From Gordonia liuliyuniae (GTDB lineage Bacteria; Actinomycetota; Actinomycetes; Mycobacteriales; Mycobacteriaceae), in assembly GCF_021739025.1 (NCBI RefSeq), contig NZ_JAKKOT010000003.1, forward strand, positions 186,001-250,000: DNA of 64,000 nt, read 5' to 3'. The translations under genes were made by a program, and so were the position numbers. The first letter of the stretch is position 1. Every line of letters begins with the position of its first letter. Under the pieces are notes generated by a model. That model was not told where the DNA came from, did no database searches, and was given only the letters and a program-made list of their open reading frames with translations. Below are positions 42,501 to 46,535 of the stretch, piece by piece.

Positions 42501-42620
42501 CTGCGGGACCGACACGTTCAGCACTGCGGCGACGACGATCCAGAAGCCGACGACGAGCCACGCGTGGCGGTGGGTGAACGTGCCGACACGCGTGAACGTG
42601 CGGCTGGGGCCGTGTGCCAT
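39555..42620 (-). CDS. MmpL-family RND lipid transporter
   Basis: This protein of 1021 residues has the duplicated MmpL layout: helix 1 (about residues 18-38), periplasmic domain D1, helices 2-6, a cytoplasmic loop, helix 7, a long helical periplasmic D2 (about 420-790), and helices 8-12. Proton-relay Asp-Tyr pairs are visible in GAVTDYAIFTLSSYQEAR and AVGADYSMLFASRIREE. D2 has long coiled-coil-like runs (ASKQLGDARPDLQRLASGV). MmpL proteins move lipids or siderophores across the membrane. No cytoplasmic C-terminal domain of MmpL3 type is present, nor any MmpS nearby. An imperfect palindrome upstream (42679-42696) may be a TetR operator. Confidence 0.9.
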   Translation of the reverse strand: MAHGPSRTFTRVGTFTHRHAWLVVGFWIVVAAVLNVSVPQLETTVSQTSADFLPQSLPANQYLEEMSRDFDAPVSNAVSSVVLINDDGIGADDEAYYTRLVTRLLDSEDVAYVLDFAGHPITREAAASPDGKALTLLVAAEGSVGSTRAHHATQGIRAEIDEAGKPADLQTYYTGPTATLADLFTAIDVSLLIITLVSIGLITLILFAVYRRFSTAAVPLISLGIGLAVARPVISFLGGHEWLPVSNFTIAIMTALVLGAVTDYAIFTLSSYQEARRQGLPVGDAVASASGRTAPILVASALTIAAACTSMAFTSIGMFRTAGPPTAIAVLIALAVALTLPPALLSLAGRRGLAEPGPSSEKRWRRRGARIIRHAGAYAAVSLLLLLSCAAILFTHQRNWDESSMFVHANESTLGYDAVYKHFGANAIAPEYLLIRSDHDLRNTADLAALELAADAVSRVDGVRTVRSITRPDGKPLTESAAGYVPGQVGDQLGDASKQLGDARPDLQRLASGVGELTDGADEATARMPELVDGTDQVVSMATGVLDSMESAERFVDAATGGKSDLAGAADELRTGLDRVAPVVRDLRKAADAAQPALDGFDELFGPLLQSRSPASCSADPACATARAAFDQLNKATGGKARRTLNGLRDAAGVPAQASRRVEASMAPLRELLGSLQSLLGQLDGRSPDEIRSDLARLKAGVGELSTGMTRLSDGLHQVQDGTEQLTTLTDKLHDGLRLATDYLSDMSAATSSGAGRGFYLPPEAMENPRFVEGARLLISPDGTTARMMVTWGVNPYGPEALDRVRDLAPAAKAALAETGLKDAEVTNTGLASLSADMDDQLVRDLLVFGLVAIAAVTVVLAVLLRSIVAPLVLVVTVILSFAAVLGLSTLVWQHIIGIPLDWSVAPVSFMALIAVGADYSMLFASRIREESTGRGMMSGMIRGFGSTGSVITTAGVVFAITMFALMSGTTLNLVQIGFTIGLGLLLDILVVRSFLVPATMVLLGDAMWWPNRKPRHASVD

Positions 42621-42678
42621 CGGATCTCCTGTGCTTCGGGCGGCGGGCTGCGCCAGGCTTAATGGAACCGTAGGTCAC

Positions 42679-42696
42679 ATAGAACGAATGGTCTAT
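42679..42696. promoter_or_regulatory. Possible operator upstream of mmpL
   Basis: This is an imperfect palindrome, ATAGAAC with GGTCTAT (6 of 9 pairs), about 60 bases before the mmpL start. Its place and size fit a TetR-type repressor, which commonly controls mmpL genes, but the symmetry is weak and no regulator is adjacent. Confidence 0.35.
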
Positions 42697-42789
42697 TGTG
42701 TCGCTCGTCACGGGGCCGTTCGCGGGCGTGGGCGCTGTCGTCGGCCGATGCTGGGTATGTAGAGTGGAACCGCTGCATTTGAGCGGCAT

Positions 42790-42862
42790 GCCCCTATAGC
42801 TCAGTTGGTAGAGCTACGGACTTTTAATCCGCAGGTCGCAGGTTCGAGCCCTGCTGGGGGCA
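42790..42862 (+). tRNA. tRNA-Lys (UUU)
   Basis: The 73-base cloverleaf has a 7-base acceptor stem (GCCCCTA with TGGGGGC), D-arm AGCTCAGTTGGTAGAGCT, anticodon loop CTTTTAA (TTT) and T-loop GGTTCGAGCC. CCA is not encoded. Confidence 0.93.
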
Positions 42863-43009
42863 CAGTGAGACGCAGGCCGCGGCACCCCGGTGCCGTGGCC
42901 TGCGGTCGTTTCTGGGAGAAGTTGCGAAAACATGCTCTGAACTGGCGATTTGTGTTTTCGGAAGCGTGTGCCATAAAGTTGTCTTCGCTCCCAGCGGGAA
43001 CAAGCACCG

Positions 43010-43082
43010 GCCCCCTTCGTCTAGCGGCCTAGGACGCCGCCCTTTCAAGGCGGTAGCGCGGGTTCGAATCCCGTAGGGGGTA
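43010..43082 (+). tRNA. tRNA-Glu (UUC)
   Basis: The 73-base cloverleaf has acceptor GCCCCCT with AGGGGGT, D-arm CGTCTAGCGGCCTAGGACG, anticodon loop CTTTCAA (TTC) and T-loop GGTTCGAATCC. It ends at discriminator A. Confidence 0.94.
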
Positions 43083-43171
43083 CGCAGATCGACTGATGTC
43101 GAGAAGCTCCAAACCACCTGATTCGGTGTAACGGAGCGGATCGGCTAAGGTCGAAACGCACAACAGAATAT

Positions 43172-43245
43172 GGCCCTGTGGCGCAGTTGGTTAGCGCGCC
43201 GCCCTGTCACGGCGGAGGTCGCGGGTTCGAGTCCCGTCAGGGTCG
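43172..43245 (+). tRNA. tRNA-Asp (GUC)
   Basis: The 74-base cloverleaf has acceptor GGCCCTG with CAGGGTC, D-arm GGCGCAGTTGGTTAGCGCG, anticodon loop CTGTCAC (GTC) and T-loop GGTTCGAGTCC. The discriminator is G, as expected for Asp. Confidence 0.94.
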
Positions 43246-43278
43246 CTTGAGGTTCGGTTGTCGTGCCGACACTTCTCT

Positions 43279-43352
43279 GGCCAGGTAGCTCAGTTGGTAC
43301 GAGCGTCCGCCTGAAAAGCGGAAGGTCGTCGGTTCGATCCCGACTCTGGCCA
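43279..43352 (+). tRNA. tRNA-Phe (GAA)
   Basis: The 74-base cloverleaf has acceptor GGCCAGG with TCTGGCC, D-arm AGCTCAGTTGGTACGAGC, anticodon loop CTGAAAA (GAA) and T-loop GGTTCGATCCC. It is the last of the four tRNAs and is followed by a hairpin terminator. Confidence 0.93.
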
Positions 43353-43358
43353 CGTTGA

Positions 43359-43386
43359 AACCCCCACTCATTATTGAGTGGGGGTT
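43359..43386 (+). terminator. Terminator of the tRNA cluster
   Basis: AACCCCCACTCA and its complement surround TTAT, and the stem is followed by CTTCGTTTC. This is the closest thing to a classical stem plus T-rich tail in the window and ends the Lys-Glu-Asp-Phe tRNA group. Confidence 0.85.
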
Positions 43387-43604
43387 CTTCGTTTCTATGT
43401 TAAAGGCCGGGTTAAAAGCCTTCGTTTCCCTGCGTGTGCTCCCTGCTTCCTGGCGAGACCCTTCTGGCGAGTTGAGGCCGACTTGCTCCGTCGTAGATGT
43501 CCGATTGGCTGATCCGTGTCGGCCCCGGTCCGCCTCTGCCGTCGGGTCGGATCATGGATCCGCGGCATGCTGCGCGTGACCGGCCGGTTTGCCGCCGTGT
43601 CCGG

Positions 43605-43680
43605 TTGTCGGCGCCCTCTGCCAGGGATGTCGTCCTGACGCATTGTCGGCGCCCTCTGCCAGGGATGTCGTCCTGACGCA
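43605..43680. repeat. Two exact tandem copies of a 38-base unit
   Basis: The unit starting TTGTCGGCGCCCTCTGCC occurs twice in a row without a mismatch (43605-43642 and 43643-43680). Each copy can form a small CCCT/AGGG hairpin. Confidence 0.9.
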
Positions 43681-43724
43681 AAAAACGGCCAGGTCAGTGG
43701 GCGGTCGTCCCCAGGGACTGTGTG

Positions 43725-43778
43725 CCACGCCACGTCGGGCAACTATTGTGGACGCGGAGTCGTGCCGCGTGGCGTGGC
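43725..43778. promoter_or_regulatory. Inverted repeat around a possible promoter of the repeat-protein gene
   Basis: GCCACGCCACG and its exact complement (11 bases) are separated by 32 bases that include TATTGT, a possible -10 box, about 95 bases before the repeat-protein ATG. It could be an operator pair or a leader hairpin. Confidence 0.35.
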
Positions 43779-43841
43779 GTGGGAAACTCGTACTTGTGGA
43801 AGCGTTGTCCGCAGAGGTGGAACCCGGTTCGAGGAGTGGTA

Positions 43842-46535
43842 ATGGCTGAAGGCGACGACAAAGACACGATGAACCCTCCGCTGGAGGTCGTCGACAATGT
43901 CGTCGAGCGTGGATACACCGTCGAACGGCTCGTCGAAGAGGCCGTCGAGACGGTCATCGACAAGCCGATCACGCTCGAACGCATCGTGGAACGACTCGTA
44001 GTCGACACCGTCGACGTCGTCGTCGATCGACCGGCCACCGTGTCGCGTCTCGTCGAGAAGCCCGTCGTCACCGTCGTCGACGACGTGACCGACAAGCCCG
44101 TTGACATCAAACGAATCGTCGAACGCCCCGTCGTCACCGTTGAAGACGACCTGACCGACAAGCCGGTCAACATCCAGCGTCTCGTGGAGAAGCCGGTCGT
44201 CAGCATCGTCGACGAGGTGGTCGAACGGCCCGTCGACGTCGAACGCGTCGTCGAGCATCCGATCGTCACCGTCGTCGACAAAGCCGTCGACGTGCCGGTC
44301 GCGGTCCCGCGCGTCGTCGAACAGCCGACGATCACGATCACGGACGAGATCATCGACAAGCCTGTCGAACTCCCGCGCCGTGTCGAGAAGTCCATCGTGA
44401 CCGTGGTCGACGAGATCGTCGAGACCCCGGTCGAACTGTCGCGCAAGGTCGAGAAGCCGATCGTGACCGTGGTCGACGAGATCGTCGAGACCCCGGTCGA
44501 ACTGTCGCGCAAGGTCGAGAAGCCTGTCGTGACCGTGGTCGACGACATCGTCGACAAGCCTGTCGAACTCCCGCGCCTCGTCGAGCGACCCATCGTGACC
44601 GTGGTCGACGACATCCAAGAGACCGAGATCGAGATCGAGCGGTTGGTCGAAAAGCCGATCGTCACCGTCCTCGACCAGATCGCGGACAAGCCCGTCGAGA
44701 TCCAGCGCCTCGTCGAACGTCTCATCGTCACCGTCGTAGATGAAGTCATCGAACGGCCGACCGAAGTCGAGCGGGTCATCGAGAAGCTCATCGTCGACAT
44801 CACCGACAAGGTCGTCGACAAGCCGGTCACCATTGAACGCATGGTGGAGAAGCCGATCGTCACCCTCGTCGACAAGATCGTCGAAGTTCCCGTCGAATCC
44901 ATCGTCGAGAAGGTCATCGAGAAGCCGGTCGAGAAGATCATCGAAGTGACCGTCGAGAAGCCGGTCGAGAAGATCGTCGAGCACGTCATCGAGGTCCCCG
45001 TCGAGAAGAACGTCTACACGACGGTCGAGAAGGAGATCGAGGTTCCCGTCGAAGAGGTGATCTACAAGACCGTCGAGAAGCCGGTCGAGAAGATCATCGA
45101 GGTGGTCGTCGAGAAGCCCGTCATCAAAGTCGTCGAGGTACCGCGCGACGTCGTCGTCGAGCGACTCGTGGACAAGCCGGTCGAGAAGTCCGTCGATCAC
45201 GTCATCGAGCGCATCGTCGAGAAGCCCAACGTGATCGAGAAGGTCGTCGAACAGCCCGTCGACAAGGTCGTCGAGCGCGTCGTCGAGACCCCGAACGTCG
45301 TCGAAAAGGTCGTCGAGAAGCCGGTCGACCACGTCCTCGAACGGATCGTCGAAGAACCCAACATCATCGAAGAAGTCGTCGAGAAGTCCGTCGACCGTGT
45401 CGTCGAGCGGATCGTCGAGATCCCCAACGTGATCGAGAAGGTCGTCGAGACGTCTGTCGACCGCGAAGTGGAGCGGGTCGTCGAGACCCCGAACGTGATC
45501 GAGAAGGTCGTCGAGGAATCCGTCGACCACGTCGTCGAGCGGATCGTCGAGGTCCCCAACGTGATCGAGAAGGTCGTCGAGGAATCCGTCGACCACGTCG
45601 TGGAGCGGGTCGTCGAGAAGCCGAACGTGATCGAGAAGGTCATCGAGAAGGATGTCGACCACGTGGTCGAGCGGATCGTCGAGGTCCCCAACGTGATCGA
45701 GCAGATCGTGGAGAAGCCTGTCGACCACGTTGTCGAGAAGGTCGTCGAGGTCCCCAACGTCATCGAACAGATCGTGGAGAAGCCCGTCGACCACATCGTC
45801 GACAAGGTCGTCGAAGTCCCCGAGATCACCGAGCAGGTCATCGAGAAGCCCGTCGAACGGATCGTCGAGAAGATCGTCGAACGACCCAACGTCGTCGAGA
45901 AGGTCGTGGAGAAGTCCGTCGACCATGTCGTCGAGCGCATCGTCGAGACGCCGAACATCGTCGAGAAGGTCGTCGACAAGCCGGTCGAGCACGTCGTCGA
46001 GAAGATCGTCGAGCGACCCGAGATCGTCGAAAAGGTCGTCGACAAGCCGGTCCACCGCGAATTCGAGAAGAACGTCCAGACGCCGGTTCTCGTCGAGAAG
46101 GTGGTCGAGAAGCAGATCAACGTCGTCGTCGAACGCATCGTCGAGAAGCCGGTCGAGCACGTGGTGGAGAAGGTCGTCGAGCGACCGGTCTACCGCGAAG
46201 TCGAGAAGATCATCGAGAAGCCGATCGAGAAGATCATCGAGGTGGTCGTCGAGAAGCCGGTCATCGTCCGCAAGGTGGTCGAACGCGAAGTGCAGCAGGT
46301 CCTCGAAGAAGGCAGCGAGACGCGCACCGTCACCCACGATGCGCCCGAGGCGCAGGCGATCGAAGCGCGATACCTCGAGGCCAAGCCCGGGGGCGGCCAC
46401 CGCTGGGTGGACGCCGGGACCGGCGAGCACCCCGACGACGAGACCGTCGGCTTCCAGACGCCAGAAAGCGTCGCCCGTGACCGGGTCGAGCCGCAGTACC
46501 AGACTCGACGTGCCCGGCACCGCTCAGAAGATTAG
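43842..46535 (+). CDS. Alveolin/articulin-like Val-Glu-Lys-Pro repeat protein
   Basis: This protein of 897 residues is made almost wholly of repeats. After a short acidic N-terminus (MAEGDDKDTMNPP) come about 37 units of about 22 residues. In the first third they read like VVDEIVETPVELSRKVEKP; in the rest they read like PNVIEKVVEKPVDHVVERIV. About 80 non-repeat residues close it, with KPGGGHRWVDAGTGEHPDDE. There is no signal peptide, membrane helix or cysteine, and very few aromatics. The alternating hydrophobic and charged residues with Pro every 11 or so resemble the EKxVEVP and VPV repeats of eukaryotic alveolins and articulins, which form filaments under the membrane. Function here is unknown. 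The ATG has GAGGAG five bases upstream. Confidence 0.8.
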   Translation: MAEGDDKDTMNPPLEVVDNVVERGYTVERLVEEAVETVIDKPITLERIVERLVVDTVDVVVDRPATVSRLVEKPVVTVVDDVTDKPVDIKRIVERPVVTVEDDLTDKPVNIQRLVEKPVVSIVDEVVERPVDVERVVEHPIVTVVDKAVDVPVAVPRVVEQPTITITDEIIDKPVELPRRVEKSIVTVVDEIVETPVELSRKVEKPIVTVVDEIVETPVELSRKVEKPVVTVVDDIVDKPVELPRLVERPIVTVVDDIQETEIEIERLVEKPIVTVLDQIADKPVEIQRLVERLIVTVVDEVIERPTEVERVIEKLIVDITDKVVDKPVTIERMVEKPIVTLVDKIVEVPVESIVEKVIEKPVEKIIEVTVEKPVEKIVEHVIEVPVEKNVYTTVEKEIEVPVEEVIYKTVEKPVEKIIEVVVEKPVIKVVEVPRDVVVERLVDKPVEKSVDHVIERIVEKPNVIEKVVEQPVDKVVERVVETPNVVEKVVEKPVDHVLERIVEEPNIIEEVVEKSVDRVVERIVEIPNVIEKVVETSVDREVERVVETPNVIEKVVEESVDHVVERIVEVPNVIEKVVEESVDHVVERVVEKPNVIEKVIEKDVDHVVERIVEVPNVIEQIVEKPVDHVVEKVVEVPNVIEQIVEKPVDHIVDKVVEVPEITEQVIEKPVERIVEKIVERPNVVEKVVEKSVDHVVERIVETPNIVEKVVDKPVEHVVEKIVERPEIVEKVVDKPVHREFEKNVQTPVLVEKVVEKQINVVVERIVEKPVEHVVEKVVERPVYREVEKIIEKPIEKIIEVVVEKPVIVRKVVEREVQQVLEEGSETRTVTHDAPEAQAIEARYLEAKPGGGHRWVDAGTGEHPDDETVGFQTPESVARDRVEPQYQTRRARHRSED
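43905..46290. repeat. Tandem 66-base coding repeats
   Basis: The coding DNA shows a 66-base period. For example, the stretch near 44401 recurs almost unchanged at 44467. Units are 60-95% alike and dominated by GTCGTCGAGAAG-type words. Because of this composition the opposite strand is also open for over 900 codons, which is a by-product. Confidence 0.85.

Follow-up and report, generated by a model that had tools for sequence, protein, structure and literature searches.

A 64,000-nucleotide stretch of the Gordonia liuliyuniae genome (contig NZ_JAKKOT010000003.1, positions 186,001 to 250,000), here called the window, encodes an epiplastin-like VEKP-repeat protein of 897 residues on its plus strand (43842..46535). 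The protein combines two kinds of 22-residue array with a conserved tail. Judged from sequence comparisons, its second array, and that array only, resembles the alveolin profile IMCp (Pfam PF12314), and this similarity depends on residue order and not on composition. Our favoured explanation, to which we give a little less than an even chance, is that the protein assembles with itself in the cytoplasm and plays a structural role in the manner of an alveolin or epiplastin. The open reading frame had been picked out in a preliminary description made from the sequence and was confirmed: it runs from the ATG at 43842 through 897 codons to the last base of the stop codon at 46535, and relatives, repeats, the substitution pattern and a conserved ribosome-binding site identify it as a gene.

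The preliminary description had counted about 37 tandem 22-residue units. The repeat length was borne out, with an identity of 0.51 at a lag of 22 residues versus 0.15 expected when the core of the protein was compared with itself, but the figure of 37 is simply core length divided by 22, and 29 units stand in register. Fifteen of them form the first array (residues 13 to 342, 43878..44867, plus strand like all parts of the gene; consensus VDEVVDKPVELERLVEKPIVTV) and 14 the second (residues 453 to 760, 45198..46121; consensus HVVERIVETPNVIEKVVEKPVD). The end units are weak, the first unit of the first array being 36% and the last unit of the second array 45% identical to consensus. Two unit types had been proposed, and the two consensuses are indeed distinct (at most 41% alike at any rotation), but a middle zone with periods of 4, 8, 12 and 16 residues (residues 343 to 452, 44868..45197) and a degenerate repeat zone (residues 761 to 826, 46122..46319) are not made of second-type units. 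Lag-12 identity was 0.217 for the core; the 105-residue middle zone alone showed a marked lag-12 signal (0.43), which lies below its own lag-16 value (0.517). Prolines, at one to three per unit, do not recur about every 11 residues as had been stated: 25 of the 61 gaps are of 12 residues, 14 of 10 and 11 of 22. The words EKPV, EKIVE and VEVPN, noted earlier, are present 13, 3 and 3 times, respectively, alongside four copies of VPV and none of VYV. The chain ends in a conserved non-repeat tail (residues 827 to 897, 46320..46532) whose T-G-x-H-P motif is invariant in nine aligned proteins and which gave no Pfam match up to E 0.1.

Scored alone, the second array matched IMCp at 46.6 bits (E 4.4e-12; curated cut-off, 21.1 bits), its best match in Pfam, with the next family at 27.6 bits. 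The array of a Nocardia relative likewise matched IMCp best (41.6 bits; next family, 32.5), so that the lead over the next family was 19 bits for the window array and 9 bits for the Nocardia array. Three full-length orthologues scored singly exceeded the IMCp cut-off (Nocardia, 48.7; L039, 32.0; L042, 26.2), and all nine aligned proteins matched the profile at E up to 1. Because Pfam cut-offs are lax for sequence of this kind, IMCp was weighed against decoy noise and not against the cut-off alone. None of nine order-destroying decoys, whether reversed, column-permuted within the unit or shuffled, matched IMCp (eight were screened at E up to 1 and one at E up to 0.1), and unrelated families reached 26.2 bits in the decoys. 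The similarity thus outlives the order-destroying controls; its loss on composition correction is what the preliminary description had named as a refutation. In the genome of the window, IMCp matches fell only within the repeat gene, at E 0.1 (28.1 bits with neighbours in frame). Thirteen of 59 Gordonia genomes matched IMCp at E 0.01, 12 of them above the cut-off, and all 13 are among the 16 genomes that carry the repeat protein. Among 14 control genomes, only that of Caulobacter vibrioides rose above the cut-off, while Methanocaldococcus jannaschii matched below it. A phylum-wide search found IMCp in none of 396 genomes at E 0.001; the window's own genome was also silent at that threshold, so this result carries little weight.

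Several observations in this paragraph and the next two weigh against an alveolin-like protein. Scored at full length, the protein reached 19.7 bits with IMCp (E 0.0011), below the cut-off, and was outscored by DUF445 (35.2 bits; cut-off, 33.8); the low IMCp score is probably due to bias correction acting on the whole repetitive chain. DUF445 also led in L042 (37.3 versus 26.2 bits), and scores in general depend on how the protein is cut, which weakens the evidence from IMCp. The first array, 40% of the core, had no IMCp match up to E 0.1, nor did the first array of L042 or the tail, and the middle zone reached 14.1 bits, below the cut-off. The real arrays of the window and Nocardia proteins also matched MIP-T3 (27.3 and 32.5 bits; cut-off, 23.4) and DUF7774 (25.1 and 31.6 bits; cut-off, 26), and three of the 16 carriers lacked an IMCp match at E 0.01. 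In addition, each carrier has one copy of the gene, although several copies are the usual state for skeletal proteins (PMC6212826), and the conserved neighbour genes, which encode Nudix, YceI, cyclase, short-chain dehydrogenase, 2OG oxygenase and aminotransferase proteins, give no hint of a skeleton function. Among the competing matches, we regard those to DUF445, MIP-T3, DnaG_DnaB_bind and DUF7774 as composition-driven, although some exceed their own cut-offs, and DUF445 as very likely spurious. The PHROG tape-measure matches (best, 2.4e-9) were likewise judged composition-driven, the best NCBIfam match had an E value of 0.11, and the best PDB sequence match, to a PUM-HD protein (E 0.017), was taken as chance.

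The proposed likeness to alveolins and articulins therefore stood in part, resting on the order-dependent match of the second array. With alveolins the protein shares V/P-rich repeats containing the words EKPV, EKIVE and VEVP. Alveolin tandem repeats are of about 12 residues (PMC4303705), however, whereas the period here is 22, and EKIVEVP, quoted as an alveolin word (PMC13175489), does not occur in the 897 residues; for these two reasons we do not file the protein as an alveolin. It further differs in its first array, its single copy and its bacterial host, and in having no cysteines for palmitoylation. Three traits define epiplastins in PMC6212826: a medial domain rich in V, I, E, K and acid-base dyads and poor in A and G, a predicted structure dominated by beta-strand without helix, and an epiplast beneath the membrane of the organism. 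The window protein agrees in composition and dyads. Of 11 residues compared, 10 occur in the core at frequencies within 1 standard deviation (SD) of the epiplastin means in print, aspartate being the exception at +1.5 SD (6.0% versus 3 ± 2%), and alanine and glycine are nearly absent, as they are in epiplastins. Acid-first dyads number 96, whereas 500 shuffles averaged 27.5 and never exceeded 41; base-first dyads are rarer than in shuffles (7 versus 27.5). A short head and a tail of other composition are shared as well. Less favourably, the core carries a net charge of −78, about −19 per 200 residues, which is more negative than the −9 ± 13 of published epiplastins, and strand dominance was not confirmed.

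AlphaFold2 modelled the full chain with a mean predicted local distance difference test score (pLDDT) of 32. The program DSSP assigned helix to 0 of its 897 residues and, at low confidence, the first array showed short strands 22 residues apart; in a 220-residue fragment (mean pLDDT, 42.5) DSSP assigned nothing. These models are too poor to lend structural support. The protein has in common with alveolins that a single chain yields no confident AlphaFold structure: AlphaFold modelling of Plasmodium alveolin domains is reported to give disorder for single domains and a twisted beta-ribbon for specific pairs (PMC12465100), and Toxoplasma IMC1 and IMC4 are predicted to associate as parallel beta (PMC13175489). 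The single-chain model would match this partner-dependent ribbon picture and, equally, plain disorder. The hydrophobicity spectrum of the core peaked at 98 degrees (33.6) and, less strongly, at 180 degrees (15.1). The 98-degree period (22/6) ranked first for the window protein and that of G004, for the Nocardia protein it was outranked by 82 degrees alone, and permutation of the k=6 harmonic gave p values of 0.019 and 0.012. The 11-residue hydrophobic moment at 100 degrees was 1.67 against 1.00 ± 0.05 in shuffles (13 SD above), and that at 170 degrees was 0.74 against 0.97 ± 0.05. There is consequently no amphipathic-strand pattern, and the alternation of hydrophobic and charged residues reported earlier does not hold in the strand sense.

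A peak near 100 degrees would suit a coat for lipid surfaces, in which each 22-mer forms a proline-punctuated amphipathic helix on membranes or storage-lipid droplets. Exchangeable apolipoproteins, synucleins and phasins are helical lipid-surface coat families, and the window protein has the 11/22-residue helical amphipathic periodicity of the exchangeable apolipoprotein/phasin type; its second array also came near the Phasin profile (27.6 bits; cut-off, 28.8). It shows, however, neither a profile match nor a predicted helix of that type. Valine and isoleucine make up 39% of the composition and alanine and leucine 3.3%, which together with the one to three prolines per unit makes helices unlikely, the AlphaFold2 chain has none (at low confidence), and dyads with valine or isoleucine on either side, an epiplastin trait, would equally produce the hhcc word pattern that underlies the 98-degree peak. 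We therefore consider a lipid coat unlikely.

Returning to the self-assembling structural protein that we favour, we envisage that single chains would not fold stably alone and that extended ribbons or filaments would arise when the arrays of neighbouring chains pair through their V/I-rich, charge-paired segments. Species differ by insertions of whole units, and these may tune the length of the polymer; the conserved tail may dock it to a partner. A broader and distinctly less probable proposal is that a clade of Gordonia possesses a nucleotide-free cytoskeletal filament system of alveolin/epiplastin type, in which one protein with two kinds of 22-residue array builds a skeleton at the membrane or the poles of a mycolic-acid bacterium; this would represent a bacterial root of a protist membrane-skeleton class, a transfer of it, or a striking convergence. 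Low-complexity repeats do not decide whether the protist and bacterial proteins share ancestry, so that both homology and convergence would account for the likeness. Descriptions of alveolin-class membrane skeletons come from protists, and among bacteria Caulobacter is an uncharacterised case (PMC6212826). Because the Gordonia proteins form a second bacterial family that is well conserved and encoded once per genome at a fixed site, filament formation by such sequences in bacteria becomes directly testable, and the structure of alveolin-type assemblies, so far unsolved, could be approached in a simple system of one protein.

The Caulobacter precedent also corrects the statement that no named bacterial system has such a protein. 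Caulobacter articulin-like proteins, with 28 NCBI entries, are treated in PMC6212826 and mentioned in PMC4303705, and the bacterial epiplastin-like kind is thus already known. They share with the window protein a bacterial host, an epiplastin composition and an unassigned function, and Caulobacter vibrioides is the control genome above the IMCp cut-off. Compared by description only, they contain many VPV and VYV modules, against four and none here. As Caulobacter proteins without a shown epiplast are termed "epiplastin-like" (PMC6212826), that label fits the window protein too. What is new is that two arrays of 22-mers are joined to such a tail, and that the protein occurs in actinobacteria and at a fixed locus. 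In the open-access literature, judged by titles and the beginnings of abstracts among the best matches, we found no paper about the Gordonia repeat protein, and queries combining alveolin with Nocardia or articulin with actinobacteria returned none.

VEKP/VEVP repeats with 35 to 45% local identity to the window protein occur in metagenome-assembled genomes (MAGs) of Granulosicoccaceae (L006 and L007) and Saprospiraceae (L008). These proteins differ from it in ending in a helix-hairpin-helix-like C terminus (HHH_5: 27.3 bits in L007, cut-off 27.0; 19.9 in L008 and 15.9 in L006, both below), and the hydrophobic spectra of L006 and L007 are highest at 180 degrees, unlike that of the window protein. 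The VEKP-rich arrays of L006 and L007 had no IMCp match, so that a wealth of VEKP does not by itself suffice for one, although the short VEKP-rich protein of L008 reached 25.1 bits. They may represent a repeat-scaffold family with a nucleic-acid-binding end (L006 5926-8253, L007 1636-4092, L008 12-731). Short VEKP/VEVP linkers were seen in MAGs of Kiritimatiellae and Verrucomicrobia (L009, L010, L012 and L013), with a GYF_2-like domain at the front of L012 (25.0 bits, below the cut-off of 25.8), and a Clostridia candidate (L011) was set aside as an E-rich repeat of a different kind. Six loci on viral contigs matched, and in the three inspected the match was the short VEKP end of a 337-residue protein.

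The closest named record to the window protein is from Gordonia zhenghanii (residues 1 to 897 matched, 87% identity in the best segment). Comparison of the two genes, with gapped and unread codons left out here as in all such comparisons, gave 0.07 nonsynonymous (dN) and 0.38 synonymous (dS) substitutions per site, a dN/dS of about 0.18, and divergences of 0.23, 0.10 and 0.04 at third, first and second codon positions. The order third, first, second was found in eight of eight comparisons, which supports coding on the plus strand, and the dN/dS indicates purifying selection on the repeat gene. A GAGGAG ribosome-binding site, read from the sequence, lies 5 bases 5' of the ATG (43831..43836, plus strand), and GGAG shortly precedes the start codon (ATG in 13, GTG in 4) in 17 of 17 relatives examined. 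If the frame were no gene, it would be a product of high-G+C, low-complexity DNA, in keeping with the open frames on both strands; this is refuted by the codon-position pattern, the dN/dS, the conserved start region with its ribosome site and the occurrence in 16 genomes, and we attach almost no probability to it. A 925-residue open frame on the minus strand (43743-46520) was rejected as a gene, because the fast-changing sites are its first codon positions; it is a shadow of the codon pattern of the repeat gene, and it also yields antisense matches in searches. Codon use is strongly biased (GTC for 196 of 243 valines, ATC for 79 of 80 isoleucines, AAG for 68 of 72 lysines), and a GTC share above that of each of nine neighbouring genes hints, from codon use alone, that the gene may be well expressed.

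With an alignment of nine proteins as the query, the repeat protein was found in 16 of 59 Gordonia genomes; this disposes of the suggestion that the frame might be strain-specific. The tail alone as the query returned the identical 16 genomes, at one place each, and in the genus it occurs only with the repeat protein. Four of 397 genomes matched in an order-wide search, all of them Gordonia (1 of 85 genera), with at most two candidates per genome scored among the matches shown. Phage and plasmid collections held no match to the repeat protein, and a contig-wide scan, which used short exact window peptides, was suited to close relatives only. In the window, the genomic site is marked by the tRNA-Phe of a tRNA-Lys, -Glu, -Asp and -Phe cluster (42790..43353, plus strand). 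Fourteen of the 16 carriers have the gene on a single contig between this tRNA-Phe and a YceI gene, and in G011 and G072 a contig break falls within the repeat gene and each half adjoins the expected neighbour. Some carriers, for example G007, G077, G066, G035 and G061, have extra genes or a mobile element inside this interval. Ten of the 43 non-carriers were inspected by fetching 15 kb from each. In seven, Nudix and YceI genes follow tRNA-Phe after 1.7 to 9.3 kb, and the listed frames of five of these seven include none that is V/E/I-rich (maximum, 23%); the other three lacked the Nudix and YceI neighbours in the fetched stretch. When the neighbouring cyclase and YceI were used for an unrooted tree, the 16 carriers stood apart from six non-carriers with a support of 1.000; of the other non-carriers, one was dropped because too little sequence was available, and three lacked these genes in the stretch at hand. 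Given this split, the distribution fits a single gain or loss followed by vertical inheritance.

A relative with 57% identity was found in Nocardia alni. Its site differs: none of the nine neighbour genes tested lies near it, and it is preceded by a PdxS-type gene (SOR_SNZ) that is absent from the fetched Gordonia stretches. This different genomic place suggests a transfer, or else losses elsewhere.

Among species, the first array changes in length by whole 22-mers. Counted from residue 57 of the window protein, it has 10 to 15 units in seven proteins and 13 in the window; it advances in steps of 22 residues with no interruption in any of the 16 proteins scanned, and invariant residues occupy fixed unit positions in the protein alignments. 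Units most resemble the unit at the same position in a close species (G007, 12 of 13 first-array units), and this correspondence fades in far species. When shifted arrays were added to the alignment, MAFFT restored the native register, so that its 56 rows are worth little more than its 15 loci. The variation in unit number is one of the features that would be expected of a disordered, highly charged entropic polymer (a spacer, bristle or stress protectant), for which length and charge alone would matter and the alveolin likeness would be low-complexity convergence. The low AlphaFold2 confidence, the net charge of −85 and the occurrence of VEKP-rich stretches alongside HHH_5 or GYF_2-like domains in other phyla point the same way. 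The unbroken steps, the invariant unit positions and the low dN/dS nevertheless require more than composition, and a soluble entropic chain would be expected to be less hydrophobic; we judge this explanation improbable, on a par with the lipid coat.

Actinobacterial repeat proteins are often surface proteins, and a surface-exposed or secreted adhesin or wall protein using an unrecognised export route was therefore considered. In G035 the stop codon of the repeat gene is where the gene for an LGFP-repeat protein (PF08310) begins, and G061 has a similar frame close by. In the window, by contrast, the repeat gene is followed by a Nudix gene of opposite orientation. No signal peptide- or transmembrane-like stretch was found by hydropathy, with no dedicated predictor run, in agreement with the preliminary description; the highest 19-residue Kyte-Doolittle mean is 1.4, and the maximum among the first 40 such segments of the protein is 0.42. 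Neither was a sorting signal recognised. A surface location is accordingly quite improbable, clearly more so than the lipid coat or the entropic polymer. The whole protein consists of V 27, E 17, I 9, K 8, P 7.5, D 6.5 and R 6%, has a pI of 4.7 and, as had been noted, contains no cysteine.

A scan of 42600-44000 with Rfam found the four tRNAs alone above the gathering score. A terminator-like hairpin follows tRNA-Phe (43359..43386, plus strand); the scan gave 4 such sites versus 3.0 ± 1.7 in shuffles, so that it is weak evidence for a separation of the tRNA transcript from the repeat gene. A scan of the plus strand between 42600 and 47300 yielded no sigma-70-like promoter. The leader between this terminator and the repeat gene holds an exact 38-bp tandem duplication (43605-43680). 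In G004, weak second matches (E 2.7e-4 and 8.7e-4) fall in a 610-residue frame that is perhaps an unrelated low-complexity protein (C1:3456729-3457487). The LGFP-repeat protein of G035 (98.5 bits) occupies L040 10839-12152, and the similar-looking frame of G061 (L114 7365-8804) closely follows the repeat gene, as if co-transcribed, like that of G035. In G007, mobile DNA is present at the tRNA site: a 5.4-kb insert between tRNA-Phe and the repeat gene (L038 2981-8437) encodes an integrase of phage type (PF00589, 70.5 bits) together with a DDE transposase (PF13358, 87.4 bits).

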